Below, in pieces: positions 5,169-24,100 of a DNA stretch of 64,000 nucleotides. Numbering within the stretch: the stretch's first letter is position 1; each line of letters starts with the position of its first letter. Where the stretch lies: contig DAIDHV010000002.1 of NCBI GenBank assembly GCA_027451905.1, positions 62,001 through 126,000 of the forward strand. Reading direction: 5' to 3'. Below the pieces are notes generated by a model. It ran no database searches. It saw nothing but the letters and a program-made list of their open reading frames with translations, and was not told where the DNA came from. This DNA is from Armatimonadota bacterium. GTDB lineage: Bacteria > Armatimonadota > Fimbriimonadia > Fimbriimonadales > Fimbriimonadaceae. A program made the translations under genes and the position numbers.

Positions 5169-5300
5169 GTAGATATTTTAAGATATCGAACACCATATTC
5201 TTTATAAATTGAATCAAAAGTCCTATTTCATTTAAATTTTATGATTTTGCCGCGCAAGATAATAGCCGCTCCTGGAGTCTGGTTTACTGGATGGTAGCTC

Positions 5301-6020
5301 ATGAACATTCAGGAATCCGCGTTTCTTGACGATAGTGCCGATTGGGGAGCCAAAATGGCGATCCACTACGACAAGCGGGTGCGAGAACGATTTCCGATCT
5401 ATGATGAACTTCTGGATCAAGCCATTGGGTGGATTCAATCTAAATTGAAGGATGATGCCTCCATCATGACCCTCGGCGCGGGTACGGGAGAGGAAATCAC
5501 GCGAATGGCAAAGGCACGGCCCCATTGGAGATTTGACGGGTACGACACTAGCCCGAATATGCTGCAAATGGCGAACGCTAAATTCAGTGATCACGGCTTG
5601 TCGGAACGAGTGACCCTCCATTTAGGCAGCGTGGATAAACTGGATTCAAAACAGTTTGATGGAGCGACATCTTTGCTGGTCCTTCATTTTTTTGAGGACA
5701 ACGAAGACGGCAAGCTTTTTGCGCTGAAGCAAATTCGGAGCCACGTTTCCCCTGGCGCACCTTTGGTTCTGGCCGACGTTTTAGGATGTTTAGACGAGCC
5801 CGATTTTGAGTCTCAGTATCAGCAAATGAAGCAGATTGTGATGAACCAGGTGGAAGACAAAAATCATTGGGAGAAGCACTACGATGCGATTCGAGAAATG
5901 GTCAAGTGGGCAACCCCAGAGCGGCTGCTTGAATTGGCAAGCAGCGCTGGTTGGAAGCTAGAAAAGGAGCTGTTTTCTTGGCATTGTTTGCACCTTTACG
6001 GGTTCATCGCTGGGGAATGA
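5301..6020 (+). CDS. Class I SAM-dependent methyltransferase
   Basis: 239 residues. The SAM-binding motif I is MTLGAGTGEE near residues 55-64, followed by the acidic motif II in FDGYDTSPNMLQMA. A later strand reads PLVLADVLG. This is the small stand-alone methyltransferase fold (UbiE/Trm-like class), and the substrate cannot be told from sequence. The ATG at 5301 has GGATGG about 5 nt upstream as a weak ribosome-binding site, and GATAAT further upstream could be a -10 box. It is a single gene between a divergent membrane protein and an exported glycosidase. Confidence 0.85.
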   Translation: MNIQESAFLDDSADWGAKMAIHYDKRVRERFPIYDELLDQAIGWIQSKLKDDASIMTLGAGTGEEITRMAKARPHWRFDGYDTSPNMLQMANAKFSDHGLSERVTLHLGSVDKLDSKQFDGATSLLVLHFFEDNEDGKLFALKQIRSHVSPGAPLVLADVLGCLDEPDFESQYQQMKQIVMNQVEDKNHWEKHYDAIREMVKWATPERLLELASSAGWKLEKELFSWHCLHLYGFIAGE

Positions 6021-8281: not shown

Positions 8282-8354
8282 CCTTGCAACGCACCAAGAG
8301 GGTGAACTACGGACTGCTTTATGCTATTGATCCTGCTGGATTAAGGTTTCTCCG

Positions 8355-8391
8355 CTGGGAGAGCGTCCCGCTTGTATGCGGGAAGGTCAGG
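8355..8391 (+). pseudogene. tRNA remnant: D-arm/anticodon-arm-like fragment
   Basis: GCTGGGAGAGCG followed by a hairpin TCCCGC-TTGTAT-GCGGGA and AGGTCAGG. The D-arm and variable-region parts match the intact tRNA-Ala at 8419. Acceptor and T arms are missing and the hairpin loop has 6 rather than 7 nt, so it cannot be a working tRNA. The same hairpin stem recurs at 8750 and 17613. Confidence 0.65.
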
Positions 8392-8399
8392 CTTTGGTA

Positions 8400-8405
8400 T
8401 AAACT
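8400..8405 (+). promoter_or_regulatory. Likely -10 box (TAAACT) of the tRNA-Ala gene
   Basis: TAAACT, overlapping TATAAA, lies 13 nt before the mature 5' end of tRNA-Ala, the right distance for a short pre-tRNA leader. No obvious -35 element is present. Confidence 0.4.
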
Positions 8406-8418
8406 CGTTGTAAGTTTC

Positions 8419-8494
8419 GGGGGATTAGCTCAGCTGGGAGAGCGATTGCATGGCATGCAATAGGTCAGGGGTTCGAGCCCCCTATCCTCCACCA
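8419..8494 (+). tRNA. tRNA-Ala (anticodon GGC)
   Basis: 76 nt including an encoded CCA. The acceptor stem GGGGGAT pairs with ATCCTCC and contains a G3:U70 wobble pair, the identity element of alanine tRNA. The D arm is GCTCAGCTGGGAGAGC. The anticodon stem ATTGC/GCAAT encloses a 7-nt loop ATGGCAT with anticodon GGC. The T arm is GGGG-TTCGAGC-CCCC. All four arms close, so it should function. It sits at the left edge of the GIY-YIG/restriction island and its 3' half is repeated at 8768. Confidence 0.95.
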
Positions 8495-8651
8495 AACTCA
8501 ATATTCATTTGTTTTTTGTTTACATCCTTTGGAGTAAAAAAGCAGCCAAGTTTTATGTTGGTCAATCCTCAGATGTTCAAGACCGCCTGGCTAGGCACAA
8601 TAGAGGATCTTCAATCTCGACAAAGTCCGGCCGACCTTGGAAGTTGGTTTA
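8462..8651 (+). repeat. Direct repeat, copy 1 (tRNA 3' end plus GIY-YIG 5' part)
   Basis: 190 nt repeated at 8768-8957, an offset of exactly 306 nt. I see two differences: C/G in the tRNA acceptor stem, and A/G inside the GIY-YIG gene. The repeat runs from AGGTCAGGGG in the tRNA through codon 48 of the nuclease gene. Such identity indicates a recent tandem duplication or recombination between cassettes. Confidence 0.93.
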
Positions 8652-8760
8652 TCAAGAATTGTTCCCAACCCGTAGCCAAGCCATTCACCGAGAGCGTGAA
8701 ATCAAAGGTTGGAAATCCGCAAAGCGAATTCAAGAACTTGTCGGAGAGCGTCCCGCTTAA
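8509..8760 (+). CDS. Small GIY-YIG nuclease (copy A), ending inside a tRNA-like sequence
   Basis: 83 residues, the usual size of stand-alone GIY-YIG (UvrC N-terminal-like) nucleases. FFVYILWS holds the first catalytic Tyr (VYI), FYVGQS is the YIG strand (Y-V-G), and RLARHNRG and PWKLVYQE follow, with the R/E set in SQAIHREREIKGWKS. It starts at a TTG 14 nt after the mature CCA end of tRNA-Ala, with no promoter or ribosome-binding site between, so it is probably on the tRNA transcript. The last six codons plus stop (GERPA-stop) are encoded by GGAGAGCGTCCCGCTTAA, the D-stem/anticodon-stem part of the following tRNA remnant. Family members are DNA endonucleases; the natural target is unknown. 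Confidence 0.88.
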   Translation: MFFVYILWSKKAAKFYVGQSSDVQDRLARHNRGSSISTKSGRPWKLVYQELFPTRSQAIHREREIKGWKSAKRIQELVGERPA

Positions 8761-8800
8761 GGCGGGAAGGTCAGGGGTTCGAGCCCCCTATCGTCCACCA
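8743..8800 (+). pseudogene. 3' half of a tRNA gene (cassette border)
   Basis: Starts with GGAGAGCG (3' part of a D arm). It continues with hairpin TCCCGC-TTAAG-GCGGGA, variable AGGTC, a complete T arm GGGG-TTCGAGC-CCCC, and ATCGTCCACCA. The acceptor half ATCGTCC has no 5' partner upstream, and the anticodon loop is too short. The first 18 nt double as the end of GIY-YIG copy A. Confidence 0.82.
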
Positions 8801-8957
8801 AACTCAATATTCATTTGTTTTTTGTTTACATCCTTTGGAGTGAAAAAGCAGCCAAGTTTTATGTTGGTCAATCCTCAGATGTTCAAGACCGCCTGGCTAG
8901 GCACAATAGAGGATCTTCAATCTCGACAAAGTCCGGCCGACCTTGGAAGTTGGTTTA
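8768..8957 (+). repeat. Direct repeat, copy 2
   Basis: Second copy of the 190-nt repeat at 8462-8651. Identity stops abruptly at codon 48 of the second GIY-YIG frame, which marks the recombination joint with the restriction island. Confidence 0.93.
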
Positions 8958-9117
8958 CGAAGAAGCCTTCGCGACCCGAAGGCAGGCTTTTTACCTAGAA
9001 CGGGGAACAATGCGGCACGATTTCTATGAGTTTGGCCGGCTCGCAGATGCACTATCGCTGGACGCAACCCTTCTGTTCAAGCGCTTCATAGATGAATTAG
9101 AGCAGCATTGGCAATGA
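8815..9117 (+). CDS. Chimeric ORF: GIY-YIG N-terminus fused to a helix-turn-helix regulator C-terminus (copy B)
   Basis: 100 residues from the same TTG start as copy A. Residues 1-48 differ from copy A by one residue and carry VYIL and YVGQS. Residues 49-63 (EEAFATRRQAFYLER) still resemble a GIY-YIG protein but are not copy A. The rest (LERGTMRHDFYEFGRLADAL, then LDATLLFKRF) has the layout of the last helices of XRE/HTH_3 regulators, where an ERG-x-R-x-DxxEF segment precedes a DxxxLF helix. It is probably a by-product of recombination at the island border and lacks the usual GIY-YIG C-terminus. It converges on the restriction operon, ending 43 nt from it. The regulator assignment is by eye. 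Confidence 0.6.
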   Translation: MFFVYILWSEKAAKFYVGQSSDVQDRLARHNRGSSISTKSGRPWKLVYEEAFATRRQAFYLERGTMRHDFYEFGRLADALSLDATLLFKRFIDELEQHWQ

Positions 9118-9159
9118 TTTCCATAGGCTCCCAGCCAAAATCAGCCTTACCCCTTATAC

Positions 9160-9564
9160 TCAAAACTTAAACTCTGCGACCAAACTTTCTAACGACCGGC
9201 TCGTGTCAAAAGCGTCGTGTGGGATAAGCACATACCTCCAAGGCTTTCCACCATTTGCTGACTCATATTCAGTCGCTCGATCGCACCACTCGCGTGCCGC
9301 CTTCGCTTTGGCCAATACGACGTCGTCCGTCACCTCCGAGGCGTCCTTCGGCTCGCAAAGTAGCTTGATGGTCTCGGTTTCGACCACGAAATCCGGTTCA
9401 TAGGGGATGTCGCGATTATAGAAAATCTGGAACTGCTTCGGCGCAGGCTTGAACCACCGAACGCCATCCGTGTCTTCCAGAATGCGCGCAAACATCAATT
9501 CGCCCTCGTAGGACTGGAACTTCTGGACCGGATAGAGGCACCGTTGAAAACCACCAAAAGCCAT
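9160..9564 (-). CDS. Severed C-terminal nuclease domain of the type III restriction enzyme Res
   Basis: 134 residues from the first ATG after the nonsense codon at 9613-9615, in the same frame as res; sixteen further codons (VRDFRSPVADKSAIRK) join it to the stop. FGGFQRCLYPVQKF and RWFKPAPKQFQIFY match the end of type III Res subunits. The PD-(D/E)XK core is visible as PD at 57-58 (YEPDFV) and E71-P-K73, followed by AREWCDRATE. The catalytic residues are therefore intact, but the domain is detached from the helicase. Either res is inactivated, or this domain is made separately from the internal ATG, or the TAG is read through. Convergent with the chimeric GIY-YIG frame. Confidence 0.82.
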   Translation of the reverse strand: MAFGGFQRCLYPVQKFQSYEGELMFARILEDTDGVRWFKPAPKQFQIFYNRDIPYEPDFVVETETIKLLCEPKDASEVTDDVVLAKAKAAREWCDRATEYESANGGKPWRYVLIPHDAFDTSRSLESLVAEFKF

Positions 9565-9612
9565 CTTGCGAATCGCGCTTTTGTCAGCAACCGGGGATCG
9601 GAAATCGCGAAC

Positions 9613-11802
9613 CTATTCGCCAAACGGCAACTCGACGGCCAGTGGTTTCAGGGTCAGAGTCCCCGGTGTGACCTGCACATCAAACCCGTCTTGCTTCTCC
9701 CATGAGTGCTCTTGCATCTGGGCGTGAACAGTCGCCGCTAGGCTCTTCTGGTGATACTGTAGGACGTTGCGAACGTCGTCCTCCGAACTCAAGTAGCCTC
9801 GAACATGCGCCACGACCTGACCGGCAAGGTCATAAAGCAGGTCCGCTTGGCTGTCGTAATGCACATCGTCAAAGTCGATCAGATTCCGTACGATGTAGTT
9901 CTCCAGGCGATCTTCTTGAACGCCGGTTGGATCGGTGATGAGTTTGGCCCGTTCTTGCGTTCGTAGCCACTGAATGAGAATGTCCTTTGCCACCGGCTGA
10001 GGCCGAACCGGCGCCAGATTGAGCCGGAATGAGTTGAACCCGCTCGTCACCTCGCCACGTGGGATGACGACAATTCGGGGAATGGAAATGGTCCGATCTA
10101 CGAATTCCTGAACGGCCTGCTTGACAACCTCCTGAACCTTTGGCGCGTCGAACATTTCCTCCAACGTGCCTTGATCCGGTTGGTAGGTAGCGATCACTTC
10201 TCGGACGATCTTCGCTTGAACGTCGGGGTTCATCAAATCCGCCGATCTCGGAAGGGTTGTGATCGTTTTGGCGACGGCTTGGGCCGCTTCTGCCAGCTTT
10301 TGTTCCGCTGGATTCTGGAATGCAAAGCCGGGTTGAGTGCCGGTTCCTTCGGTGGCAACTCGGGGACGATAAACAGGCTCAACGGCAATCACCTGGGGCT
10401 TCTGCGTAGGAATGTCGCGTCCGACCTCGACGCCACGGCGGATGATCGAATTCGGATCGTTGGCCCGCTCGATCAACTCTTGGAAACGCTCATGGGCCGA
10501 CACGAACAAGGTATCCAGTTCTTTCTTGCCGGTTCGCTTGCCATAGGGCAACCGCAGGCCGCGACCAAGGGTCTGCTCGGTCAGAATCTCCGATGCCGAC
10601 GCCCTCAACGGAACGATGGTGAACAGATTCGAGACGTCCCAGCCTTCTCCGAGCTTGTTGACGTGAATGACAATTTCGGTTGGCTCGTTCGCATCCTCGA
10701 CTTGGAGCAACCGTTGGACCATGTCGTCTTTCAGTTCGCCCGACTGGTTCGAGTGGACGACGGCGACCCGTCCGGTATACCGACCTTCGAAGAATCCGTC
10801 GCCTTGGATGAACTCGAAGAGTTGGTTGGCATGGGTGGTGTCCTGAGCCACCACGAGCATGAACGGCTTCACCAACGGCTTGTCGTTCTCCAGCGCATAG
10901 ATTTGCAAGTCGGCCTTGACCTTTTCGTGAGCATGAACACCGTCCTCCAGCATCAGCTTTTCTAGCTGATCCCTGGGCACGTCCTTGGGCTTGAAGTCTT
11001 GGCGCGTGAGAGCCGCAGCTTCCTTCACGAATCCGTCTTCAAGGGCCGCAGAGAGAGGATAGGAGTAAATGACGTTCCTGAACCCCGAGGACCCGGCACC
11101 TGTGCTTCGTGCCGTGGCCGTGAGTTCCAGACCGAGAATCGGCTTGAGTTCGTTGATCGCTTTGATTCCGGCCGACGCCCGGTACCGGTGGGCCTCATCC
11201 ATCAAGAGCACCAGGTCAGGCAAGCCCGCGAGGTATTCGAAGTAGCTCTTGCCGATGTACTCCGAGAGTCGCTTGATGCGCGGAGCCTTTCCTCCGCGAA
11301 CTTCGGAATTGATCTTGGAGACGTTAAAGACGTTGATGACCACGTCATCGAAGAGCTTGGTTTCGCGGACTCCCCGGCCTTCCTCGTACGTATCGCCGGT
11401 CACCACGACGGGAGGGCTGACGGCAAACTCGGCGATGCCTTGGAACACGTACTTGGGAGTGTTTGGCGTGAAGTCTCGAATCAGCTTCTCGTAGATCGTC
11501 AGGTTTGGAGCGAGCACGAAGAAGTTGCGGACCCCGTGCGCCTGAACCAGATAGGTGATGAACGCACCCATGAGCCGCGTTTTGCCAACGCCGGTGGCCA
11601 GTTCGAAGCAGAGAGAGGGAAAGTCACGCTCAAAGTCTTTGACATGGCTAAATTCGTCGCTTACGCGCCGTAACGCCTGCTCCAAGTCCTGGACCTTCGT
11701 GAGTTCCAGAATCTCTCCCAACCGAGCTAGCAGTTCAAGCGATTCGCGCTGAGGTTTGCGGAGGCTGAGTCGTGCGCTGATGGCATTCACGAATCGATTC
11801 AT
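9613..11802 (-). CDS. Type III restriction enzyme Res subunit, helicase part (ends at a premature TAG)
   Basis: 729 residues. Superfamily 2 helicase motifs are Walker A ATGVGKT (69-75), DEAH (202-205), TATAR, and the C-terminal helicase lobe with VIHVNKLGEGWDV and EQTLGRGLRLPYG. The chain stops at ...VELPFGE with TAG, but the frame continues for 150 codons with the expected nuclease domain (9160-9612). Full length would be about 880 residues, normal for Res. Its ATG overlaps the mod stop by 4 nt. Res translocates on DNA with ATP and cuts with Mod at unmethylated sites; without its nuclease it should not restrict. The operon is visibly richer in G+C than its surroundings, consistent with transfer. 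Confidence 0.9.
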   Translation of the reverse strand: MNRFVNAISARLSLRKPQRESLELLARLGEILELTKVQDLEQALRRVSDEFSHVKDFERDFPSLCFELATGVGKTRLMGAFITYLVQAHGVRNFFVLAPNLTIYEKLIRDFTPNTPKYVFQGIAEFAVSPPVVVTGDTYEEGRGVRETKLFDDVVINVFNVSKINSEVRGGKAPRIKRLSEYIGKSYFEYLAGLPDLVLLMDEAHRYRASAGIKAINELKPILGLELTATARSTGAGSSGFRNVIYSYPLSAALEDGFVKEAAALTRQDFKPKDVPRDQLEKLMLEDGVHAHEKVKADLQIYALENDKPLVKPFMLVVAQDTTHANQLFEFIQGDGFFEGRYTGRVAVVHSNQSGELKDDMVQRLLQVEDANEPTEIVIHVNKLGEGWDVSNLFTIVPLRASASEILTEQTLGRGLRLPYGKRTGKKELDTLFVSAHERFQELIERANDPNSIIRRGVEVGRDIPTQKPQVIAVEPVYRPRVATEGTGTQPGFAFQNPAEQKLAEAAQAVAKTITTLPRSADLMNPDVQAKIVREVIATYQPDQGTLEEMFDAPKVQEVVKQAVQEFVDRTISIPRIVVIPRGEVTSGFNSFRLNLAPVRPQPVAKDILIQWLRTQERAKLITDPTGVQEDRLENYIVRNLIDFDDVHYDSQADLLYDLAGQVVAHVRGYLSSEDDVRNVLQYHQKSLAATVHAQMQEHSWEKQDGFDVQVTPGTLTLKPLAVELPFGE

Positions 11803-13454
11803 TCGGCCTCCTCCGCCTCAGCATCCGCAAAGAGCCCGCCTAACTGATCGGCCTTATAGCCGAGCTTCTTTACCCTCTCTTCGTATTCGTTCCAGTCCCA
11901 CTGGCACTTGTGGAGGACGGCCTTGGGAATCTTCTTAACCGTCAGGTTCGGGAAGGCGTCGGGATTGCCCCGGAACGCCGCGCAACAAATGAGGAGCGTT
12001 CGTTCGTCTCCCACTTCCTCGCTGATCGCCGCGAGTTGCTCATGGGTCAGCGTTTGAGTCGTGACGTAGACGAAGTCGGTGTCCGTGCTCCTGCCGTGCT
12101 GCCAGTAGACTTCTTCACTCGGAGCGTAACTAAAGCCTTCGAGTTTGCAGACCGCTTCGGCCAACATCTCGCGGTTGAACTCCGGGTTGATGACCTCGTT
12201 GCCATACTTGTCGGTCGCGATGAGAGATGGTGCAAGCCGATAGTAGCGGAACCCACCTCCACCCTTCCAATCGACGGCCTTCGTGATGCCACCTGAATCC
12301 TCGCCGTCGATCACCTTACGCAGTCGCGGAATGATGTGGGTGTGGCAGTGCTCGCCAAGCTCAACCATGATCCAGCGACGCCCCATCTTGTGAGCAACCG
12401 CGCCAGTAGTCCCCGAACCACCAAAGGAATCAAGTACCAAGTCTCCTCTTGCCGTGCAGATATCCAGAGTTCTTGCAACCAGGTCTTCGGGTTTAGGTGT
12501 GTCGAATTCAGGAACACCCTTCAGCAGAGCTTTTAGGTGGGACTTTGTTTGGCGTGTTGTATCCAAGTCTGCCCAAATTGTGGGGTATGGCTTCTTCGGA
12601 TATGTAGGAGCGTATTCCCGGGTGTACGGCACCCACGTTCGGCCAGCCTCCTTTTCCCTTTGCTTCCAAACAAGGGTTCCGGCCTTTCTATGCTTTTCGA
12701 CTGCCTTTGGACTACAAGCCCAACGGGCCTCTCTTCCATCATCATGCAGAGGAAACACAGTCGAACCATCCGGAGCCTCGACCTCGAAGTACATTGTTGG
12801 CCGATCCGTACGGAGACTGTTCTTGCCGTTCTTCTTTAGCAGTCTGTCTCGATAAGCTCGACCGTCCTCTGCAATGTTCGGATAAGCGTCAAGAATGGAG
12901 TCGTCACCAAGCTGAGCGAGGTTGACCGCCTTTGAGTTCTTGGCATACGCCAGAACGAAGTTGTGGTTGGACGCCACGGGAACCTTGTTGTCGTTTGGAC
13001 TATCGACGTTCCGCCAAATGAAGGTGAATAGAAAGTTCTTTCTGCCAAACACCTCATCCGCCATCACCTTAAAGTAGTGGGCTTCCGTGTCATCGAGTGT
13101 CGCCCATAGAACACCGTCTTCGGCGAGAAACCTGTACAGAACTTCTACCCGATCTCTAAGCAAGCTAAGCCAAATCGAGTGCTCCAAGTTGTCGTCGTAA
13201 TGCGTGAACGCTTTGCCCAGGTTATATGGCGGGTCTATGAAGATGCACTTCACCTTACCAGCGAACTCTTGCTCCAACGCCTTGAGCGCAAGAAGGTTGT
13301 CCCCAAAGATCAATCGGTTGTCGAAGACGTCGTTCTCGGAAACTCGCCGATCCGCGTGATACGACTTCTCCGGGTCTTCCAGCAGAATCCTCGGCTCCAG
13401 CTTTGGACGAACCTCCTTCCCAACCCACGTCAGTTCCAACCTGCCCTTACTCAT
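11799..13454 (-). CDS. Type III DNA methyltransferase Mod (N6-adenine)
   Basis: 551 residues. The catalytic motif is DPPYN (74-78) and the SAM-binding motif is FGGSGTTG (344-351), in the catalytic-before-SAM order of the beta class used by type III Mod proteins. The target-recognition region lies between them (about 150-320). The C-terminal part (RYYRLAPSLI, then INPEFNREMLAEA) is typical of Mod proteins paired with Res. It should methylate adenine in a short asymmetric site and guide Res. It overlaps DUF3800 upstream and res downstream by 4 nt each, so the operon is tightly coupled. The gene looks intact, so methylation may continue even if restriction is lost. Confidence 0.93.
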   Translation of the reverse strand: MSKGRLELTWVGKEVRPKLEPRILLEDPEKSYHADRRVSENDVFDNRLIFGDNLLALKALEQEFAGKVKCIFIDPPYNLGKAFTHYDDNLEHSIWLSLLRDRVEVLYRFLAEDGVLWATLDDTEAHYFKVMADEVFGRKNFLFTFIWRNVDSPNDNKVPVASNHNFVLAYAKNSKAVNLAQLGDDSILDAYPNIAEDGRAYRDRLLKKNGKNSLRTDRPTMYFEVEAPDGSTVFPLHDDGREARWACSPKAVEKHRKAGTLVWKQREKEAGRTWVPYTREYAPTYPKKPYPTIWADLDTTRQTKSHLKALLKGVPEFDTPKPEDLVARTLDICTARGDLVLDSFGGSGTTGAVAHKMGRRWIMVELGEHCHTHIIPRLRKVIDGEDSGGITKAVDWKGGGGFRYYRLAPSLIATDKYGNEVINPEFNREMLAEAVCKLEGFSYAPSEEVYWQHGRSTDTDFVYVTTQTLTHEQLAAISEEVGDERTLLICCAAFRGNPDAFPNLTVKKIPKAVLHKCQWDWNEYEERVKKLGYKADQLGGLFADAEAEEAE

Positions 13455-14353
13455 TTCTTTGGGTTCGCCCGGACCGGGGCCTTGTCCTCATCATGTTGTG
13501 GTTCCCACCACCAGAAGTTGACCGGGTTTGCTGGGTTTGGCGTCTTTAGCATCTTGCTTGACTTCAAGGAGACTCCAAGCCGATTGGCCTTGCAGCCTTC
13601 GTTGAACTCATGAAGAAGTTGGCATCGCTCTCGGTCTGCTCCGCTTAGCTTGATTTCATCGTTCTCCGATGACTCGAAAAGGACGTCTTGAATCTTGCCC
13701 TCACGCCACGCTTCGAGCTTCCGAAAGTGCTCGCGGGAGTAGATCGCCATGCCGACGTGAAGATCGGCCAACTGCACTAAGGGTTCGGTTTTCGACGAAA
13801 CAGGCTCAATACTGTGAAGCTTGAACCAATCCCAAAACTCGACATGAATCGTGCCTTCGGTAAGCAAGTCCTGTCGAACTGAGCCTCCAACAGACATACG
13901 GTCCAGCCATTCGTGGACGTTGTTCCACTTCATGAGAGCATTCTGATCCGGATGTAGTTTCCAGACTGCTTCATTCGGCCAGCGTCTGACAAGCATCGCC
14001 TTGCATAAGTGGTGATACATTCGATGCAGGTTCTCGACATCGTCTCTGCCAGGTAATTTGTGCCGACTGTCCTCGGTGTCCCATGACAAGACATCTACGC
14101 GAAGTCGGCCGGCCTTAGCCCAGTCGAGCGATTGCTTGGCCCATTTCCCAGCGCAGAAGCGCTCCTTTGCGCCGTTGAGTTCCTTCCAGTGGACCTCCTT
14201 GACGTTTGATTCCTCACGTAGGGTAGCCAACCTGTTCGAAAGTTCTTGCCGGCATTGAGCCTTCAGGGAGACGATGGCGACTCCACGAAACCGCCCCGTA
14301 TTATGGTGGCTTTCGTCGGCAAACGCAACGTGAGTGGGCTCAACGTTGTCCAT
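13451..14353 (-). CDS. DUF3800-like protein (RNase H-like fold) inside the restriction operon
   Basis: 300 residues. The start HVAFADESHHNTG has the FADES motif (11-15) of DUF3800 proteins. SKTEPLVQLADLHVGMAIY, around residue 195, matches the second conserved acidic motif (QLAD...G). These acidic residues fit an RNase H-like nuclease core. The ending is lysine- and tryptophan-rich (NFWWWEPQ). It overlaps the helicase by 14 nt and mod by 4 nt, which argues for a shared role in defence. DUF3800 genes recur next to restriction and helicase genes in other genomes, but I know of no established biochemical role. Confidence 0.78.
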   Translation of the reverse strand: MDNVEPTHVAFADESHHNTGRFRGVAIVSLKAQCRQELSNRLATLREESNVKEVHWKELNGAKERFCAGKWAKQSLDWAKAGRLRVDVLSWDTEDSRHKLPGRDDVENLHRMYHHLCKAMLVRRWPNEAVWKLHPDQNALMKWNNVHEWLDRMSVGGSVRQDLLTEGTIHVEFWDWFKLHSIEPVSSKTEPLVQLADLHVGMAIYSREHFRKLEAWREGKIQDVLFESSENDEIKLSGADRERCQLLHEFNEGCKANRLGVSLKSSKMLKTPNPANPVNFWWWEPQHDEDKAPVRANPKK

Positions 14354-17216
14354 CAGCTGTTGCCTCCTCGAGTTCCCAGGCTAAGGCGATGAGCGGATTT
14401 GCCTCGACCTGCTGCTTAAGTTGAGCTTCGACACCGTCGATTAGGGCTTCCTTCCTCGCGTCGATGTCGTCCTGAGCCTTGTACAGTTCAAGTTGCTTCC
14501 GGTCACGTTGCTTCTCAACGTCGCGTAGTTCCTTCTGGATGGCGAGTTTCTGATCAAGGGCTTGGGCCACCCGAAACTCCTTCTTAAGTTGGTTGACCCG
14601 CGCTCGCAAGTCTTTGATATCGACCTCCAAGCCATGCTTTAGGTCGTCGGCCCAGCGTTCTAGCTTGTCGATCTCGTCGGTAAAGAAGGACGTGTTTCGG
14701 GTTTCCCGCTCCCCTAGCGCCAGGGCTTGCGCCTTCTCCACCTGCTCCCTCATGACGCCTTGCGCATCTTCCGGGATGAGGGCCGGTTCCCAACCTTGGG
14801 CAGGCAGTCCGAGCAACGCCTTGGCGAACTTCCAATGGAGGGGATTTCCTGCATCGTCGGTCGCAGCAAAGAGTAGACGTTCCTCCTCATCAACATCGGA
14901 CGTGATCGCGAGCTTCGAAACGACCAGGTGCCCGCGTTTGCCGACATGCGGCTCGACTTCGACGTTACGCCCGTGGGAAGGGTCATAGTTGAAGATCAGG
15001 TGCGCGGGTCCTAATTGGCGTTCCTTGGCCTGTCTGAGGATGGCCTCAGCCAACGGGTGACCCAGCCGAAGAGTGCGCGTTCCTTCTGATCCTTGCCGGG
15101 TCAGCATGACGTACCGACCGGGTTCAATGTGATCCCACCCGTCCGGCACGGAGTGGAGGGTGAACTCGCACTGCGCGTCGTCAAAGTCCGCGTGGTCTGC
15201 CAGTTCAGCTTTGGCAAGCCGGTAGAGCAAAGACTCCAACTCTCCCATGTGCGCTTCCGCTTCCTGCTTCCGAAGCCGTAGCCGCTTACGCACGGTCTCG
15301 TCAAGATTCGCCAAGACGTCTTGCTCGACCTGCTTCATTCGGTGTTGGATCTGTTCTTCCAGTTCGGATTGGAGAGCATCAAAGGCTTCGTCAATCTCGT
15401 CCCGCGTCCGGCACGTTTGGTAGATATCGAGAATCCGTTGCTCGAAGTCAACCCCGGATTCAAGGGCACCCAGCACTTCGTCAGAAGAACCGAAGACGCC
15501 GTCAAAGAGCTTGAACTTCTCGTTGAGCAGATCGAAGACCCTCATGTCGGCTTCGTTTGCCCGATTCAGGAAATTGATGACGACCACGTCATGCTTTTGA
15601 CCATACCGGTGACATCGGCCAATGCGCTGTTCAATACGCTGAGGGTTCCAAGGCAGGTCGTAGTTCACAACCAGGCTACAGAATTGAAGGTTGACGCCTT
15701 CTGCCGCCGCTTCGGTCGCAATGAGAATGTCTTTGTTGAGCTTGAAGTCTTCGACAAGTGCCGCCCGAAGGTCCACGGCCTTGTTTCCTGTGACTACTCC
15801 TTCACCCTTGTGCCGTTCCAGCCAAGCCTTATAGATGGCACCGGATCGGTCGTCGGCATTCGTTCCGTTCACCGTTAGGAATCGGTCGGCGTATCCGTTC
15901 TCACTTAGGAGGTTGACCAGATATTCCTGAGTGCGACGACTCTCGGTGAAGATCACGGCCTTTTGTGCCGCGCCGAGTTCTTCGAGCTTGGCAAAGCCGC
16001 TCCGCAGGGCTTCGAGGAGTGCGTTGCCCTTGGCGTTGACCGTAATCGACTCAGCTAGCTTTCGGTATTGGGCGAGCTCCTGAAGCTCGGCGAGGATACG
16101 TTCGGTATCCGTAGGTTCGACGCCTTCAGCCCCCTCATCACCGACGGGGTGCAGTTCCTCAGCAATTTCATCCAACGTCTCAAAGTCATCTTCGAGCGAC
16201 CCGGTGATATCCGGGTTTTTCTCTTTGATTCGCTCGATCATTCGACCAAGCGTCTGGCCAATGGCGAATGTCGATGACGCCAATAGCTTTCGAAGGACAA
16301 GCGTCATCAGCTTCCGCTGGCTTGCGGGAAGGGCCTGAATGTCGTCGCGCTGGAGGTACTCCGACACAAGCATGTAAAGGCGTTGTTCTTCGTCGGTCGG
16401 AGTGAAGTCCTGGGCGATGGGGATTCGCGCTGTGAATTTCACGTACTCCTGAACTTGCCTTCTCAGGGTTCGCTGGCAAATGGGTTCAAGTCGGAGTTTG
16501 AGGTCACGCAGTTCGCGTTGTTCGAGTGGCCCTCGCATATAGCGGGCCTTGAATGCGTCCACGTCGCCAAAGATGTGATCGTCTACCAGACTCACAAGTC
16601 CGAACAATTCCAATAGGTTGTTCTGAAGTGGAGTCGCCGTAAGCAGCACGATTGGCCGATGGCTGACCGCCCGTTTGATCGCCGCCGCAATCTTGTTTCC
16701 GGGCTTCCAAACATTGCGGAGCCGGTGCGCTTCGTCGATAACCACCAAGTCCCACGGCACCGACAGCACTTGGGTTTCCTTGCTCTGGACGAAGTTGTAC
16801 GAACAAATGACCACCTGGTCTTGCGGCCTCAGAGGGTTCTCACCGGCTTTGTTTCTGGTGTTGAATTCCTTTCCGTCAAGGACGAGAGAGTCTAGGTGGA
16901 ATTTATCGCCGAGTTCCTGCGCCCACTGCTTTCGGAGAATGGTCGGGCAGATGACGAGAATCTTGCGCTTGCGTTCGGCCCAGAGCTGGGAAATGAGCAA
17001 TCCGGCTTCGATGGTCTTGCCGAGTCCAACTTCGTCTGCCAAAATTGCGCCACGCGACAACGGAGATCGGAAGGCGAACAAAGCCGCGTCTACCTGATGC
17101 GGATTGAGATCGACCGTGGCACTGTAAAGCGACGCCCCCAATTTATTTGGATCGTCAGATGCACTCCTCCGAGTCAGCTCGTGAGCAAAGTAGCACGCAT
17201 GATAGGGTGTGAGCAT
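14340..17216 (-). CDS. SNF2-family helicase/ATPase leading the restriction operon
   Basis: 958 residues. Walker A is DEVGLGKT (61-68), followed by DEAH (161-164), LLTATPLQNN, LIATEAAAEGVNLQ and QRIGRCHRYGQ. This is a complete SNF2-type motor resembling RapA-like and DISARM DrmD-like helicases. The C-terminal third has a beta-rich region, then a charged coiled coil (about 840-930, EIDKLERWADDLKHGLEVDI onward). It probably remodels or translocates along DNA for the Mod/Res complex. The ATG at 17216 is the first start after an upstream region with TATCCT 15 nt before the ATG as a possible -10. No DrmA, DrmB or DrmC gene is present, so this is not a complete DISARM system. Confidence 0.88.
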   Translation of the reverse strand: MLTPYHACYFAHELTRRSASDDPNKLGASLYSATVDLNPHQVDAALFAFRSPLSRGAILADEVGLGKTIEAGLLISQLWAERKRKILVICPTILRKQWAQELGDKFHLDSLVLDGKEFNTRNKAGENPLRPQDQVVICSYNFVQSKETQVLSVPWDLVVIDEAHRLRNVWKPGNKIAAAIKRAVSHRPIVLLTATPLQNNLLELFGLVSLVDDHIFGDVDAFKARYMRGPLEQRELRDLKLRLEPICQRTLRRQVQEYVKFTARIPIAQDFTPTDEEQRLYMLVSEYLQRDDIQALPASQRKLMTLVLRKLLASSTFAIGQTLGRMIERIKEKNPDITGSLEDDFETLDEIAEELHPVGDEGAEGVEPTDTERILAELQELAQYRKLAESITVNAKGNALLEALRSGFAKLEELGAAQKAVIFTESRRTQEYLVNLLSENGYADRFLTVNGTNADDRSGAIYKAWLERHKGEGVVTGNKAVDLRAALVEDFKLNKDILIATEAAAEGVNLQFCSLVVNYDLPWNPQRIEQRIGRCHRYGQKHDVVVINFLNRANEADMRVFDLLNEKFKLFDGVFGSSDEVLGALESGVDFEQRILDIYQTCRTRDEIDEAFDALQSELEEQIQHRMKQVEQDVLANLDETVRKRLRLRKQEAEAHMGELESLLYRLAKAELADHADFDDAQCEFTLHSVPDGWDHIEPGRYVMLTRQGSEGTRTLRLGHPLAEAILRQAKERQLGPAHLIFNYDPSHGRNVEVEPHVGKRGHLVVSKLAITSDVDEEERLLFAATDDAGNPLHWKFAKALLGLPAQGWEPALIPEDAQGVMREQVEKAQALALGERETRNTSFFTDEIDKLERWADDLKHGLEVDIKDLRARVNQLKKEFRVAQALDQKLAIQKELRDVEKQRDRKQLELYKAQDDIDARKEALIDGVEAQLKQQVEANPLIALAWELEEATADGQR

Positions 17217-17352
17217 TGACTCGACGTGTACAGGATACCTTTTGCAGGATAATCACCTTAACGCTCAACTCGATTTGCGGTGGCTTTTGCCCTTTGGTTT
17301 CATCGGGCTAACTCGGTTCATACATGCTCGGTTGCAAATCGCGTCCAGGAAT

Positions 17353-17363
17353 CTCCACCAAAC
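17353..17363 (+). repeat. tRNA 3'-terminus match CTCCACCAAAC before GIY-YIG copy C
   Basis: This 11-nt string is identical to the end of tRNA-Ala and its flank (8487-8497). In both places a GIY-YIG gene starts 11-14 nt after the CCA. No other tRNA sequence remains here, so it looks like the left border of a third cassette. Confidence 0.55.
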
Positions 17364-17371
17364 ATTTGCAC

Positions 17372-17623
17372 TTGTACTTTGTTTACATTCTTAGGAGTGA
17401 AAGTTCTGCCAAATACTACATTGGCCAATCTGCTGGCGTACCAGATCGCTTAGCCCGTCGCAATCGAGGGAATTCCGCGTCGACGAACTCCGGTTGGCCC
17501 TGGAAGTTGGCCTACCAAGAGCCCTTCCCTAACCGTAGCCAAGCCATCTTCCGACACAGTGAAATCAAAATGTGGAAATCTGCGAGACGCATTCAAGAGC
17601 TTATTGGAGAGCGTCCCGCTTAA
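17372..17623 (+). CDS. Small GIY-YIG nuclease (copy C)
   Basis: 83 residues from a TTG, exactly the length of copy A. YFVYILRS and YYIGQS are the GIY and YIG strands, followed by RLARRNRG, PWKLAYQE and RIQELIGERPA at the end. It is diverged from copies A and B, so it was not part of the recent tandem duplication. Again the last codons and the stop (GGAGAGCGTCCCGCTTAA) are the first 18 nt of a tRNA-like remnant. It lies on the opposite side of the restriction operon from copies A and B. The conserved Glu/Arg region is slightly altered (FRHSEIKMWKS where copy A has HREREIKGWKS), which may weaken catalysis. An ATG 16 codons upstream is possible but adds non-family sequence. Confidence 0.82.
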   Translation: MYFVYILRSESSAKYYIGQSAGVPDRLARRNRGNSASTNSGWPWKLAYQEPFPNRSQAIFRHSEIKMWKSARRIQELIGERPA

Positions 17624-17649
17624 AGCGGGAAGGTCAGGGGTTCGAGCCC
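17606..17649 (+). pseudogene. tRNA remnant at the right border of the island
   Basis: GGAGAGCG, then hairpin TCCCGC-TTAAA-GCGGGA, then AGGTCAGGGGTTCGAGCCC, after which similarity to the tRNA stops before the acceptor stem. It is the same structure as 8743-8800 except for the loop base and the truncated 3' end. Confidence 0.75.
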
Positions 17650-17741
17650 TCAAAGCCGAGGTAGCTTGTTGAGATCAAAAGGTTGGACTAGCTAAATCAG
17701 GCTCAAGGGCCCGCTTCCGAACCAAGCATTGAACTCCCCAC

Positions 17742-17753: not shown

Positions 17754-20700
17754 ATGAGTGTGGAGGACGGAATCAACCGAAGGCAATTTTTGGCACTGAC
17801 TAGTAGCACCGCGATCGCGGCGGCAGTCCCGAGACCCAACCTGAAATTCAGCAGCCTTTGGCCACCAATGAAGCAAGCGGGACCAACCCTCCACATCATT
17901 CCCGAATCTAAGAACTTTAGCCCCGAATGGTTGGAATCACTCACCAATGATTCTCATCCCCACGTCTTCCAAGGCGATGAATTGAAATTCATTGGAATGC
18001 CGATTGGAGGCATCTGTTGCGGACAAGTCAATCTGGGAGGCGACGGCCGACTTTGGCTTTGGTCAATATTTAACCAAATTACGTTTGGAGTTGCCAACAA
18101 AACCGTGGCGTACAATGGCCAAAACCTTGGCCCCTCCGGCGGTGCAAATTATGTAGACCCACCCACCCAAATTCATCCATTTCAACAAGGGTTTTGGGTT
18201 CGGTACTCCCATAACCAAAAAACCGAAACTCGAAGCCTTGATGAGGACGGCTGGTCTTCCATAAGATTCACCGGCGAGTACCCGATTGGATTTGTTGACT
18301 ACCAAGATCAAGATTGCCCACTCAAAGTCCACTTAGAAGCCTATTCGCCATTTGTTCCTCTTCATACCGATCAGTCTTCTTTGCCGTGCGTGGTTATGAA
18401 GTACACGGTCGACAACTTAAGTTCTGATCCGATTCAGGTTGAACTGGGAGGGTGGCTCCAGAATTTCATTGGCGGAACCGATGCGCACGCAGAAAATAAT
18501 GTCCAGCGAGTACTTGAATGGCGCCAAGAAAACGAGTTTGCCATCGCAATTTGCAAATTGCAGCCAATTCCAGCGCCCGATGCCAAGCCAGAAATCATCT
18601 TTGAAACTTTTAACAACAGCAGTTATCGCAACTGGAAGGTGGAAGGTGAGGCTTTTGGTCCCGGTCCCATTGAGGTTGCCAAAATGCCAAGGTATCAGGG
18701 CGATGTTGGCGCGGTAGGCAACCGCATCGCATGCTCTCACAATGCAAGAGACGGAAGAAACGTAGAGCAGGCCGATGCCCTGACCGGCAAACTCACAAGC
18801 CGGCCCTTTACCATCAACCGAAAGTACATTGCGTTTTTGATTGCGGGAGGAAACCATCCCCATCAAACTTGCATTAACCTGGTGATTAACGGCCAGATCG
18901 CGCGCACTCAAACCGGTCAGAACTCTAATGTTCTCACGGATGCCGCCTTTGATGTTACGGAGTATTACGGCCAAACGGCTCATCTTGAAATTGTTGATTC
19001 CGCCACCGGCGCTTGGGGCAATATCTCGATTGACCACATTGTTTTTACCGACATTTGGCCCTCTCAAGCCGTGTTAGACCGTCGAACAAATGGAGGGACA
19101 ATGGCCCTCAGTTGTTTGGAAGGAGGCAAAAGCATCCAATTTGCGGTTGGAGAGAGCTTGGATCAATTCACTAAAATCGGTTCAGAAAGGCTTTCCCAAA
19201 GCACCACAAATAAGCCTTTTCTAGCCTATATCGGCAACACAAAATCAATTCCTGCCCATGGGTCGGCCACATTGACCTTTGCCCTTTCGTGGTCTTTCCC
19301 CAATTTGACTTTGCCCCTCCTCGGCAAAGTTGGGCACTTACCTTCCACCAGATTTCAAGACCTCGTCAAGCTGACTCGCCACTTAGCGTCAAACAAAGCA
19401 GAGTACGATCTGACCAAAAAATGGCATGACACTTGGTACGATTCCACCCTTCCGCGGTGGTTCTTGGATCGAGTCATGGGCAATACGGCAACGTTATCAA
19501 CCATGACCTCCACTCAATTCAGAAATGGCCGATTCTATGGGTGGGAAGGCATAGGCTGCTGTGATGGTACTTGTGGCCATGTGTATCAATATGCTCACGC
19601 CATGGCAAGGCTCTTCCCGGATCTAGAACGATCGGTGCGAAAGATGGTTGATTTTGGAATTGCCTTTCATCCTGATTCTGGGATCATTGATTTCAGAGGC
19701 GAATATGGCGAGGGATACGCGGTTGATAGCCAAAGTGGCTATGTTTTGCGTGCCTACCGCGAACACCAAATGAGCGCGGATTCAAGATTCTTAACCCAAT
19801 TATGGCCCCGCATCAAAAAGGCATTGGGCTATATGATCCAACAAGATGGCAAGCAATCGGGACTGCTTACCAACCGACAGCACAACACGTTGGATGTTGA
19901 TCTTTATGGACCCTCGTCCTGGCTTTCCTCTTTGTATCTTGCCGCCCTGCAAGCAGGAGAGCTGATGGCAAAAGAGATGGAAGACCTTGATTTTGCCAAG
20001 CAGTGCCAAGAAATCCTCTCAAACGGATACAAAAACTTTAGTAAGACCCTTTGGAATGGCAGCTACTTTGTCTCGAAGCCAAGCCCAAATCATCCCAATT
20101 CACTTCAATATGGAGACGGCTGCGAAGTTGACCAAGTTATGGGCCAAGCTTGGCTATATCAAATCGGCTGTAAAAATCGACTGTTTGATAACAATCAAAC
20201 CTTAAGCGCTCTCAAATCCATTTACAAGAACAATTTTCTGCCCGACGTTGGCCCTTTTCGCAAGAAGTACGAAGCCGGACGCTGGTTTGCTTTGCCCGGA
20301 GAAGGCGGGCTGGTTATTTGCACATTTCCTAAACATGATCGCGAAGCAATTCTTGGTCCAAACCCAACATGGGCATCCATGTATTTTAATGAGTGCATGA
20401 CCGGATTTGAATATGAAGCAGCTAGCCACATGATTGCGGAGGGCTTGGTTCAAGAGGGACTTGCCGTTATTCGGACCGTGCACGATCGGTATTCGCCTCA
20501 AAAAAGAAATCCTTGGAATGAAGTGGAATGCAGTGACCATTACGCTCGGTGCATGGCCGTCTATGGCGCCTTTATCACCTTAACTGGGTTTGAGCATCAC
20601 GGTCCTCAGCAGCATCTTGGATTTGATCCAAAGCTTAGCCCAGAGAAGTTTCGATGCGCGTTCACGGCTTGCAATGGTTGGGGCACTTACCACCAGGAAA

Positions 20701-20996
20701 AACTTGGGAATGGAATGCACTACCGCCTTCAACTTGTCCATGGTGAGCTTCTATTAAAGACCCTGACCTTAAGGCTTCCACCAGACTCCCAGTTTTCTCA
20801 TTTTCAAGTGATCCTTGGCGGCAATCCGGTTGGCAAAGTGCAAGTTGAGGAGGTTGAAAATGAGTCGACTCCGGCTTTAACCAATGGCAACTCTCATCAA
20901 TTGCCGGCCCAACCGGCAGGGGCTCTGGTTAAACTGACCTTGCCTAGCTCGGTTCTGCTATCAGAAAAGAATTTGTTGCAAGTGTTGCTGAGCTAA
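17754..20996 (+). CDS. Exported GH116 (GBA2-type) beta-glycosidase with an inserted beta-sandwich domain
   Basis: 1080 residues with a Tat-type signal (NRRQFLALTSSTAIAAA). The N-terminal beta domain has FIGMPIGGICCGQVNLGGDG then RLWLWSIFN, a GBA2/GH116 hallmark. The C-terminal (alpha/alpha)6 barrel contains YGWEGIGCCDGTCGHVYQYA, DVDLYGPSSWLSSLYLAALQ, TWASMYFNECMTGFEYEAAS and NPWNEVECSDHYARCM. Between about residues 265 and 435 an extra domain (FETFNNSSYRNWKVEGEAFG, then FLIAGGNHPHQTC and LEIVDSATGAWG) resembles the beta-sandwich modules found with GH32-like enzymes. That gives about 170 extra residues. Family members cleave beta-glucosides or beta-xylosides; the true substrate is open. It is followed by a GH38 gene, also with its own close -10 box. 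Confidence 0.86.
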   Translation: MSVEDGINRRQFLALTSSTAIAAAVPRPNLKFSSLWPPMKQAGPTLHIIPESKNFSPEWLESLTNDSHPHVFQGDELKFIGMPIGGICCGQVNLGGDGRLWLWSIFNQITFGVANKTVAYNGQNLGPSGGANYVDPPTQIHPFQQGFWVRYSHNQKTETRSLDEDGWSSIRFTGEYPIGFVDYQDQDCPLKVHLEAYSPFVPLHTDQSSLPCVVMKYTVDNLSSDPIQVELGGWLQNFIGGTDAHAENNVQRVLEWRQENEFAIAICKLQPIPAPDAKPEIIFETFNNSSYRNWKVEGEAFGPGPIEVAKMPRYQGDVGAVGNRIACSHNARDGRNVEQADALTGKLTSRPFTINRKYIAFLIAGGNHPHQTCINLVINGQIARTQTGQNSNVLTDAAFDVTEYYGQTAHLEIVDSATGAWGNISIDHIVFTDIWPSQAVLDRRTNGGTMALSCLEGGKSIQFAVGESLDQFTKIGSERLSQSTTNKPFLAYIGNTKSIPAHGSATLTFALSWSFPNLTLPLLGKVGHLPSTRFQDLVKLTRHLASNKAEYDLTKKWHDTWYDSTLPRWFLDRVMGNTATLSTMTSTQFRNGRFYGWEGIGCCDGTCGHVYQYAHAMARLFPDLERSVRKMVDFGIAFHPDSGIIDFRGEYGEGYAVDSQSGYVLRAYREHQMSADSRFLTQLWPRIKKALGYMIQQDGKQSGLLTNRQHNTLDVDLYGPSSWLSSLYLAALQAGELMAKEMEDLDFAKQCQEILSNGYKNFSKTLWNGSYFVSKPSPNHPNSLQYGDGCEVDQVMGQAWLYQIGCKNRLFDNNQTLSALKSIYKNNFLPDVGPFRKKYEAGRWFALPGEGGLVICTFPKHDREAILGPNPTWASMYFNECMTGFEYEAASHMIAEGLVQEGLAVIRTVHDRYSPQKRNPWNEVECSDHYARCMAVYGAFITLTGFEHHGPQQHLGFDPKLSPEKFRCAFTACNGWGTYHQEKLGNGMHYRLQLVHGELLLKTLTLRLPPDSQFSHFQVILGGNPVGKVQVEEVENESTPALTNGNSHQLPAQPAGALVKLTLPSSVLLSEKNLLQVLLS

Positions 20997-21111
20997 CTTG
21001 ACTTGAACCCGGTAATTTCCCAATACGGAAGACAAGTCAATCTGGACACTTTGGCTGCAATTTCTAAACACAGTTGAAAGATGCCATCGGATTGTCCACA
21101 TTAGGGCATAC

Positions 21112-21117
21112 TAGAAT
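21112..21117 (+). promoter_or_regulatory. -10 box TAGAAT 8 nt before the GH38 start
   Basis: TAGAAT, five of six consensus bases, is followed by CGCACTCA and then ATG at 21126. No Shine-Dalgarno sequence is present. This supports an independent, near-leaderless transcript for the mannosidase. Confidence 0.5.
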
Positions 21118-21125
21118 CGCACTCA

Positions 21126-24100
21126 ATGAACCGGCAATCATCTGTGCGGACTGGCGCAACCGCTTCAAAAACACTTATCCTCGCTCTTTCCACTGTCGGA
21201 ATGCTCACCATTGGCATCGCCTATGCCCACTCACACAGCCCTTCTAGTCCCAAAAAGGCTACAGGACTTACCCCCAAAGCTAAGCTCAAAAAAGAGATCG
21301 CTTTGGGATCGGTACCCACGCTAGACTTCCCTACAGCTTCCAAAAAAGCAAAGTCTAAAAAGCAAGCCAAAATAGGAACGCTCTACGTTATTGGCTACTC
21401 TCACCTAGATACGGAATGGTGCTGGTCTTACCCCCAAGTCATTGGCGAATTTATCCAAAACACTCTTGACCAAAACTTTGCCCTATTCCAGAAGTATCCC
21501 GATTACGTTTTTAACTGGACTGGTTCAAATCGGTATAGGTTCATGCAAGAATACTATCCTCATCGGTTTGCGGAGCTTAAGAAATATGTTGCAGAAGGCA
21601 AGTGGTTCCCGGCCGGTTCTTGCATCGAAGAAGGAGACGTCAACAGCCCCAGCGAAGAAGGTTTGGTTCGGCAAGTTCTGTACGCCAATGAGTATTTCCG
21701 CAAGGAGTTTGGCATGGCCAGCACTGAATTCATGCTTCCTGACTGCTTTGGGTTTCCGGCATCCCTTCCTTCCATCCTTGCCCATTGCGGACTCAAAGGA
21801 TTTTCAACTCAAAAGCTAACTTGGGGTTCGGCTGTAGGAATTCCATTCAATGTTGGTGAGTGGGTTGGCCCCGATAACCAAATGATTACGGCAGCTCTCA
21901 ATCCGGGCAGCTACACAAGCACCATTGATGATGACCTCTCCAAGGATCCCTATTGGGTCAATCGGCTTAAAAAAGATGTAGCCAGAAGCGGCGTTGGCGT
22001 TGATTACCATTACTACGGGACTGGTGATCGAGGCGGAGCCCCTGATGAGCAATCGGTTATCAACATGGAAAAATCACTGCACGGTGATGGACCGATTCGC
22101 GTGCTCGCCGGCCCTGCCGACGCTATGTTCAATAAGCTCACCGCAAGCCAAAAGCGTGCGCTCCCCCATTATAAAGGCGACTTAGAATTGACTTGGCACA
22201 GCTGTGGATCTCTAACCTCAGAAGGGGCCATGAAGCGGTGGAATCGCAAGAATGAATACCTAGGTGACTACGCCGAGAAATCTTCGTTGGCTGCTGCCTG
22301 GTTGGGTGCTCAACCCTACCCATACAACCGCATCACCGATGCCTGGCTAAGATTCTTGCCCGGACAGTTCCACGATCTCATGGCAGGAACCGCGATCCCT
22401 CGAGCCTATAACTTTGCATGGAACGATCAAATTTTGGCAATGAACGAGTTTGCTGATGTTATTGATCATTCGGTGGGTGCTGTGTCTCGAGGCTTGGATA
22501 CCAACGTTCCTACATCAGATTCTGCCTCTGTCGTGGTCTACAACCCGCTTTCCATCCAGCGGCAAGATATCGTTGACGCCGATGTCACATTTCCCAAAAA
22601 TGCTCCTCGCTACGTTCGAGTTGTGGGGCCCAATGGAGAAGCCGTGCCAAGCCAAGTGGATGGCAGATCTGGGAACACCCTTCATGTGGTGTTTCTTGCC
22701 ACTGTTCCTTCCCTTGGGTTCGCCCACTTCTCGGTAAACCCCGCCAAAACTGCTTATCCCAAAAATACGGGTCTGAAGGTCACCGACACTGAGCTTTCCA
22801 GCCCTCGATATTTGGTCAAGATCAACAAAGCAGGGGATGTTTCTAGCATTTATGATAAGAAAGTTCAACGAGAGCTCCTTGCCGCTCCTGCTAGGCTTGC
22901 CTACCAATATGAAAACCCTTCGGCGTGGCCGGCATGGAACATGGATTGGGAAGATCAAAGCAAGCCGCCAAGGGGCTATGTCCATGGACCAGTTCAAGCC
23001 AAGATCGTAGAGGACGGTCCGGCTAGAGTTTCGTTGGAAATAACCCGCCACACACTGGGTTCTATTTTTCATCAGACACTACGACTAGCGGCTGGTTCTG
23101 CCGGTTCACAAGTTGTTTTTGATACAAAAATTGATTGGCAAGGCAAACATACCGCCCTCAAGGCAACCTTTCCGCTGACCGCCAGCAATCCTAATGTGAC
23201 TTACAACCTAGGCCCTGGCACGATTCAACGTGACACCAACAACCCAAAGCGGTATGAGGACTTGTCTCATGGCTGGTTTGATCTCACCGACACATCTGGC
23301 AAATGGGGCACAACAATCCTTGATGATTGCAAGTACGGATCCGACAAGCCCAATAACAACACGGTTCGTTTGACCCTCATTTACACACCTGGCACAAGGG
23401 CTGGATATCAGCATCAAGGCTGCCAAGATTGGGGCAGAAACATCATGACCTACTCTGTAGAGGGCCATGATGGCAGTTGGAGGAATGGGGATGCCCAGTG
23501 GCAAGCCGCACGGCTTAATCAGCCCTTGCTTGGCTTCCAAACACCGACCCACGGTGGACGCCTCGGTCAATCCTTCTCCTTTGCGTCGGTAAATTCGAAG
23601 CAAGTTTCAATCGAAGCGATGAAGAAGTCAGAAAAAGGCAACCACATCGTGGTTCGGTTTAACGAGCTGCTTGGCGAAAACGCCAAAAACGTGGTGCTGA
23701 AATTTGCAGCCCCTATCAAGTCGGTTGAAGAAGTCAATGGACAGGAGTTCAAGATTAGCCCAACCGGACCAATGGCACTGCGAAACGGGAAACTGGTTTT
23801 CTCGATGACTCCCTATCGTCCAAGAGCGTTTGAGGTGACCCTTGCCAGCGATTCTCACCCTGCCACAGCACCAACCAGCACTCATGTTGCGCTGCCTTAC
23901 AACGTTTCGGTGGAAAGTTCTTGGAGCCACAAAACCGATGCTAGGTTCGATTCTCAAGGTGATTCCATCCCTGGTGAAATGATGCCTTCCCATATCAAAA
24001 GTGGCGGGATATCGTTCATGATGGCTGGTCACAAGGCGGGAGAGCTCAACGCGGTGGCATGTGAAGGTCAGACCCTTCACATACCGGCCGGTAAAAATCG

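Follow-up and report, generated by a model that had tools for sequence, protein, structure and literature searches.

Very small GIY-YIG nuclease genes next to bacterial tRNA and tmRNA genes: a probable homing-like element family with palindromic tRNA remnants

The free-standing GIY-YIG homing endonuclease SegB, known from T-even phages (PMC13096335; review PMC2988022), cleaves within tRNA genes and promotes tandem tRNA-segB repeats that include a C-terminally truncated copy (PMC13096335). With a GIY-YIG gene beside tRNA genes it is the nearest known system to the genes described here; it differs in that SegB is phage-borne whereas the present family is chromosomal, in that its neighbours show no tRNA isotype preference, and in that a palindrome in the anticodon arm has not been described for it. 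Group I intron endonucleases (TIGR01453) align in the GIY-YIG motif region, but the nuclease described here reaches only 24.2 bits against a cut-off of 56.05, and no Rfam intron was found in the window, i.e., the whole 64-kb stretch of DNA that was analysed. For small GIY-YIG proteins of the UPF0213 type we know of no linkage to tRNA genes. These are likewise single-domain proteins and provide the best sequence match among solved structures (PDB 1zg2, 1ywl); in contrast, a group of the nuclease tree (see below) that is not linked to tRNA genes has another C-terminal half. Genomic islands that integrate into tRNA genes by a tyrosine recombinase share the tRNA target, the partial tRNA duplication and the restoration of an intact tRNA, but the present cassettes have no integrase, measure approximately 300 bp and carry a hairpin in the anticodon arm. 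REP palindromes with their Y1 transposase (RAYT) resemble the cassettes in combining short palindromes with the gene of a small single-domain enzyme. The earlier note had stated that integrase and transposase are missing, and this is borne out: the window has no PF00589 match (four tyrosine integrases are encoded elsewhere in the genome), and Y1 transposases were found neither in this genome nor in two other unit-carrying genomes (G055 and G057). RAYT and integrase were thus rejected as mobilisers, Y1 being absent from the genome and integrase from the window.

The source genome comprises 2.87 Mb in 37 contigs. An intact tRNA-Ala(GGC) lies at 8419-8494 on the forward strand (ARAGORN, Rfam); no second GGC copy was found in the genome. 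This tRNA is followed on the same strand by the gene of GIY-YIG nuclease A (8509-8760; 83 aa), which has a TTG start 14 nt past the tRNA and a stop codon within a hairpin. GIY-YIG B (8815-9117, +) duplicates A in tandem until approximately position 8996 and continues with a piece of a different GIY-YIG sequence and an unrelated tail, so that it is a chimera; the unrelated tail gave no Pfam match. The A-B pair arose by a recent tandem duplication, and the switch at approximately 8996 would fit the expectation for recombination or conversion tracts. Nuclease C (17372-17623, +) shares 70% identity with A, also has its stop codon within a hairpin, and is preceded by a tRNA 3' tail, AATCTCCACCA (17350-17360, +). 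Apart from A, B and C, no relatives were found in the genome. As the earlier note had claimed, the genes start 11-14 nt past tRNA 3' ends: the gap from CCA to start is 14 nt for A, 14 nt for B (counted from the CCA of a remnant) and 11 nt for C (counted from AATCTCCACCA). The tRNA-tail pattern was seen twice in the window versus 0.00 times expected in shuffled windows, and the arrangement recurs in many genomes, which excludes chance. A 719-aa gene lies to the left of the locus, and the search for its homologues gave matches.

Three tRNA remnants accompany the cassettes. Copies A and C both end, as had been noted before, in a remnant starting GGAGAGCG, with GGAGAGCGTCCCGC reached at 8743 and 17606, respectively. 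The remnant behind A (8743-8800, +) consists of GGAGAGCG, a hairpin (8751-8767) replacing the anticodon arm, and tRNA nt 44-76 (8768-8800; 97% match). The one behind C (17606-17649, +) consists of GGAGAGCG, a hairpin (17614-17630) and tRNA nt 44-62 (100% match; called by Rfam as a partial tRNA), its acceptor end being lost. A remnant of the upstream type (8355-8391, +) corresponds to decayed tRNA nt 16-51, with part of the D-loop and D-stem of tRNA-Ala, a hairpin (8366-8383) and AGGTCAGG. The window contains three TCCCG..CGGGA palindromes, which are exactly those of the three remnants.

In related loci, the nuclease gene usually has, at its far end, an incomplete copy of the tRNA that it adjoins, and in 27 of 38 pairs this copy scores that tRNA above every other isotype. 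A palindrome of the form TCCCGn...nCGGGA occupies exactly the place of the anticodon arm (nt 27-43) in most of the remnants found. The tRNA match ends at nt 25-27 and restarts, gapless, at nt 43-45 in nearly all remnants that were scored, their flanks being scored independently of the hairpin pattern. The hairpins measure 15-19 nt, the mode of 17 being the natural length of an anticodon arm; their own sequence pattern served to find them, and certain loci were counted more than once. Pair 1, the first one inside TCCCG..CGGGA, where the search did not demand pairing, is Watson-Crick in 38 of 38 cases with three pair types; the palindrome is therefore maintained as a structure.

The element occurs in two mirror forms. 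In the D form, an intact tRNA is followed by a short spacer, the nuclease gene, GGNAGAGC, the hairpin and tRNA nt 44-76. In the U form, a leader is followed by tRNA nt 1-26, the hairpin, RGGTC (to approximately nt 51), a spacer, a leader and the intact tRNA; here, too, a nuclease gene may be present (L036, L041 and L050). Remnants of the 5' half and of the 3' half both occur around one tRNA. Several copies have the nuclease stop codon within the D-loop or hairpin part, and the unit is therefore very compact. Complete examples were found at a tRNA-Pro (genome G060) and, as two tandem units, at a tRNA-Lys of Algoriphagus aestuarii; A. pacificus has one unit, with extra palindromes, so that the copy number differs between the two species at the same tRNA cluster. 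Tandem units are thus seen in the window (A and B), in G060 and in Algoriphagus. Half-tRNAs with a hairpin also flank intact tRNAs at loci L067, L069-L077, L079, L086, L087 and L090; some loci hold them in tandem arrays, and they are present also in genomes that have no strong nuclease copy. Regarding remnants that do not adjoin a nuclease gene, the link with nuclease presence in the genome was weak (p = 0.10). Additional TCCCG..CGGGA or TTCCG..CGGAA palindromes were observed inside the hairpin or T-loop of remnants (L045, approximately 5230-5330; L235, approximately 1730-1800; L047, approximately 2300).

The encoded proteins match PF01541 with E-values of 3.4e-18 (A), 6e-13 (B) and 1e-7 (C). 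The features of the GIY-YIG superfamily are present, Y5, Y16, G18, R26, H30 and E50 being conserved in 90% or more of 18 members. A separate C-terminal DNA-binding region was not found; Pfam gives the catalytic domain alone, covering residues 1-73 of the 83 aa. The comparison of A with C yielded a dN/dS of 0.13 at a dS of 1.48, a value made rough by near-saturation, and the nuclease gene is under purifying selection. Decayed copies carrying stop codons occur as well (L009, L017 and L020).

Relatives were searched with A alone and with the 18-member alignment, covering at most 291 genomes from the phylum, and 14 loci from other phyla were added; after removal of duplicates and fragments, 136 usable loci were left. 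A tRNA or tmRNA gene lies within 250 nt of the GIY-YIG gene in 57 of these, on the same strand in all 57, versus one tRNA in 92 kb at a distance of 1000-1400 nt. Within the set from the same phylum, 44 tRNA or tmRNA genes were counted at most 250 nt upstream (29 kb) versus 1 in the next 116 kb. The tRNA that adjoins the element is intact in the window as well as in most linked loci, i.e., the host gene is left whole. The only exception to the same-strand rule was seen outside the census, at the end of a viral contig (L235, 1389-1464), where a tRNA-Ala lies on the strand opposite to the nuclease. Thirteen GIY-YIG genes are located approximately 80-230 nt downstream of a tmRNA gene on the same strand (L152, L154, L156, L157, L158, L160, L163, L169, L186, L198, L208, L210 and L060), several of them with palindromes between tmRNA and gene, e.g., TTCGACGCG..CGTCGAA and CCTGAGCTTGTCGAAGG. 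The earlier note had named a random position relative to tRNA ends and a gene order fixed across the family as observations that would speak against its reading. The distances of the census place the clade far from random, and the order is not fixed: any relative of the gene was found in 44 of 151 relatives, a strong one in only approximately 18 of these. A search for empty sites in two genera by means of proteins flanking occupied tRNA loci (an 846-aa gene by tRNA-Val in G055 and a sulfatase by tRNA-Ala in G063) found no unoccupied allele; its one match, in G043, had no tRNA nearby. Among mobile replicons, matches were obtained in 15 of 50,697 phage records and 1 of 72,556 plasmid records (best identity approximately 42%), and a phage or plasmid origin was rejected because almost no relatives occur there. 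In the three viral contigs in which a relative is present, the nuclease gene has tRNA sequence or hairpin remnants next to it.

A tree of 113 proteins was computed; its columns are few and many of its forks lack resolution. One clade of 58 rows contains tRNA-linked members from the phylum of the window, Acidobacteriota, Bacteroidota, Verrucomicrobiota, Nitrospirota and Uhrbacteria. Leaving aside one subclade of 17 rows, an intact tRNA or tmRNA is near in 33 of the 41 rows. A further subclade is found mostly behind tmRNA. The group with the different C-terminal half, placed elsewhere in the tree (35 rows), has no member linked to tRNA or tmRNA. The nuclease tree predicts the tRNA isotype, and lineages stick to isotypes: 21 isotype changes were required versus a mean of 34.6 in shuffles (0 of 500 as low), a test that is partly confounded by inheritance within lineages. 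Within the family of the source organism alone, 4 changes compare with 6.6 (5 of 1000 shuffles; 13 rows). The clade at tRNA-Ala is found on both GGC and TGC tRNAs in four genera (five genomes) and therefore does not represent one inherited locus.

Between B and C lies an island of four genes, all on the reverse strand: a type III res gene (9160-11802) broken by an in-frame TAG (9613-9615), a type III mod DNA methyltransferase gene (11799-13454), a gene for a DUF3800 protein (13451-14353) and a gene for a DrmD-like SNF2 helicase (14340-17216). With mod and res adjacent, the genes qualify as type III restriction-modification. DISARM was considered and rejected, since the DrmD_b equivalog gave 688 bits versus 950 and the other island proteins had no best match to a drm model. 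The island is indeed richer in G+C, as the earlier note had observed (55.5% versus 48.4% in the rest of the window, where 8.1-kb blocks range from 47 to 50%), and its genes have a GC3 of 0.63-0.69 versus 0.50-0.56 in their neighbours. Genes for GH116 and GH38 glycosidases follow to the right (17754-25592). The same note had described the cassettes as bracketing the island; a role of the island as their cargo was not supported. The closest relative of the island, in genome G064, has nucleotide similarity spanning 9178 to 17216 and an intact res homologue (L131; a single 881-aa frame), stands in other surroundings, and has ends free of GIY-YIG genes and tRNA remnants. The bracket is therefore a single case, and the island is not part of the unit. 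Neither a GIY-YIG gene nor a hairpin remnant was found in the stretches of approximately 20 kb that hold related operons in G064, G055, G137 and G092, and the island was accordingly rejected as regular cargo. In G055, a related DrmD-like gene begins approximately 120 nt after a tRNA-Leu(TAG) (L132, 5330-5537). The bracket reflects one event, probably a capture at a recombination-prone tRNA locus; the island would have entered later than the cassettes, most likely by recombination within or between cassettes at tRNA-Ala.

The ~80-residue GIY-YIG genes next to tRNAs have the appearance of a hitherto undescribed family of very small selfish mobile elements. In the explanation that we favour, and consider reasonably probable, each cassette is a minimal free-standing element of approximately 310 bp resembling a homing endonuclease gene, which has the tRNA gene as its niche and keeps one working tRNA. 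The nuclease would be expressed by read-through from the tRNA promoter and would cleave a tRNA gene that is still unoccupied, the cut falling most likely within the anticodon arm or close to it. An occupied copy would then serve as the repair template, with the flanking tRNA halves as homology, so that the nuclease gene is pasted in and one complete tRNA is left, at little cost to the host. The palindromic pseudo-anticodon arm would mark the end of the element and turn the leftover half into a dead and presumably uncut site, and unequal repair would give rise to tandem copies such as A and B. The proposal of the earlier note that the nuclease itself drives site-specific invasion of tRNA genes thus stands as regards a site-specific association at many tRNAs in several phyla, free of integrase and transposase; the cutting of tRNA genes and the copying by repair, and with them mobility, we infer, with support from the closest studied analogue, SegB. 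Several observations speak against homing: no unoccupied allele turned up in the flank searches in two genera, the intact tRNA beside the element retains the presumed target, the protein is a catalytic domain with no recognisable DNA-binding domain, hairpin remnants are also present in genomes that have no strong nuclease copy, and inheritance within lineages partly confounds the isotype test.

In a rather unlikely alternative, mobility resides in the palindrome, a REP-like hairpin inserting at tRNA anticodon arms, perhaps via replication or via template switching at a cruciform; GIY-YIG would then be its processing nuclease or a passenger. Hairpin remnants that do not adjoin a nuclease gene, the absence of a strong nuclease copy from 7 of the 15 genomes that show the hairpin pattern, the extra palindromes inserted in remnants (L045, L235) and the palindromes that also accompany tmRNA-linked genes would fit it, but the isotype tracks the nuclease phylogeny, the genome has no Y1 transposase, and TCCCGAT palindromes are scarce across the genome, the 16 genomes having 0-17 sites, many of them at tRNAs. 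A genome-wide REP family was rejected as the main driver because of these few copies. Slightly less probable still, the nuclease might be kept for a benefit to the host or the tRNA locus (tRNA gene amplification or defence), its tRNA neighbourhood serving expression and not homing. SegB amplifies tRNA genes against tRNA-cutting defences (PMC13096335), and both the purifying selection and the adjoining restriction island would agree with such a role; against it, one complete tRNA plus dead halves is no functional tRNA amplification, the distribution is patchy, and copies decayed by stops exist (L009, L017 and L020). That the cassettes are leftovers of ordinary integrative islands targeting tRNA 3' ends, with integrases lost and GIY-YIG as passenger, appears improbable. 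The tRNA site, the half-tRNA duplication and the adjoining G+C-rich island are what such leftovers would show, but a cargo-free unit of 300 bp, which has an exact anticodon-arm palindrome and lacks an integrase, recurs across several phyla and at many isotypes, and remnants of both halves surround one tRNA.

Going beyond the homing-like element favoured above, we tentatively raise a more specific version, to which we give distinctly less credence: the 80-aa GIY-YIG protein might recognise the anticodon arm, as duplex DNA or as a cruciform, and rebuild it as the palindromic end, each insertion producing one working and one dead tRNA. The elements would then form a new class, among the smallest autonomous elements, with isotype-specialised lineages (including one for tmRNA) in approximately six phyla, seeding tRNA fragments beside real tRNAs.

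Cellular tRNA-linked GIY-YIG units were not found described in open-access full texts, the scope of the search. The 2006 survey of the superfamily uses the word "tRNA" three times, in passages silent on insertion at tRNA genes. The GIY-YIG nuclease and the tRNA as target are already known, and homing is probably the working principle; to the extent that it could be checked, their combination with an anticodon arm replaced exactly by a palindrome, with half-tRNAs of both kinds and with isotype lineages is new. With a gene of 249 bp, the hypothesis lends itself to a direct test. If true, free-standing nucleases of the homing type have adapted to tRNA and tmRNA genes in bacterial chromosomes and not in phages alone, using target sites that exist in every genome. 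The family would also be a source of the tRNA fragments found next to real tRNA genes, offer a natural collection of nucleases that differ in tRNA-gene specificity, and open a route to tandem repeats and island capture at tRNA loci that needs no integrase.
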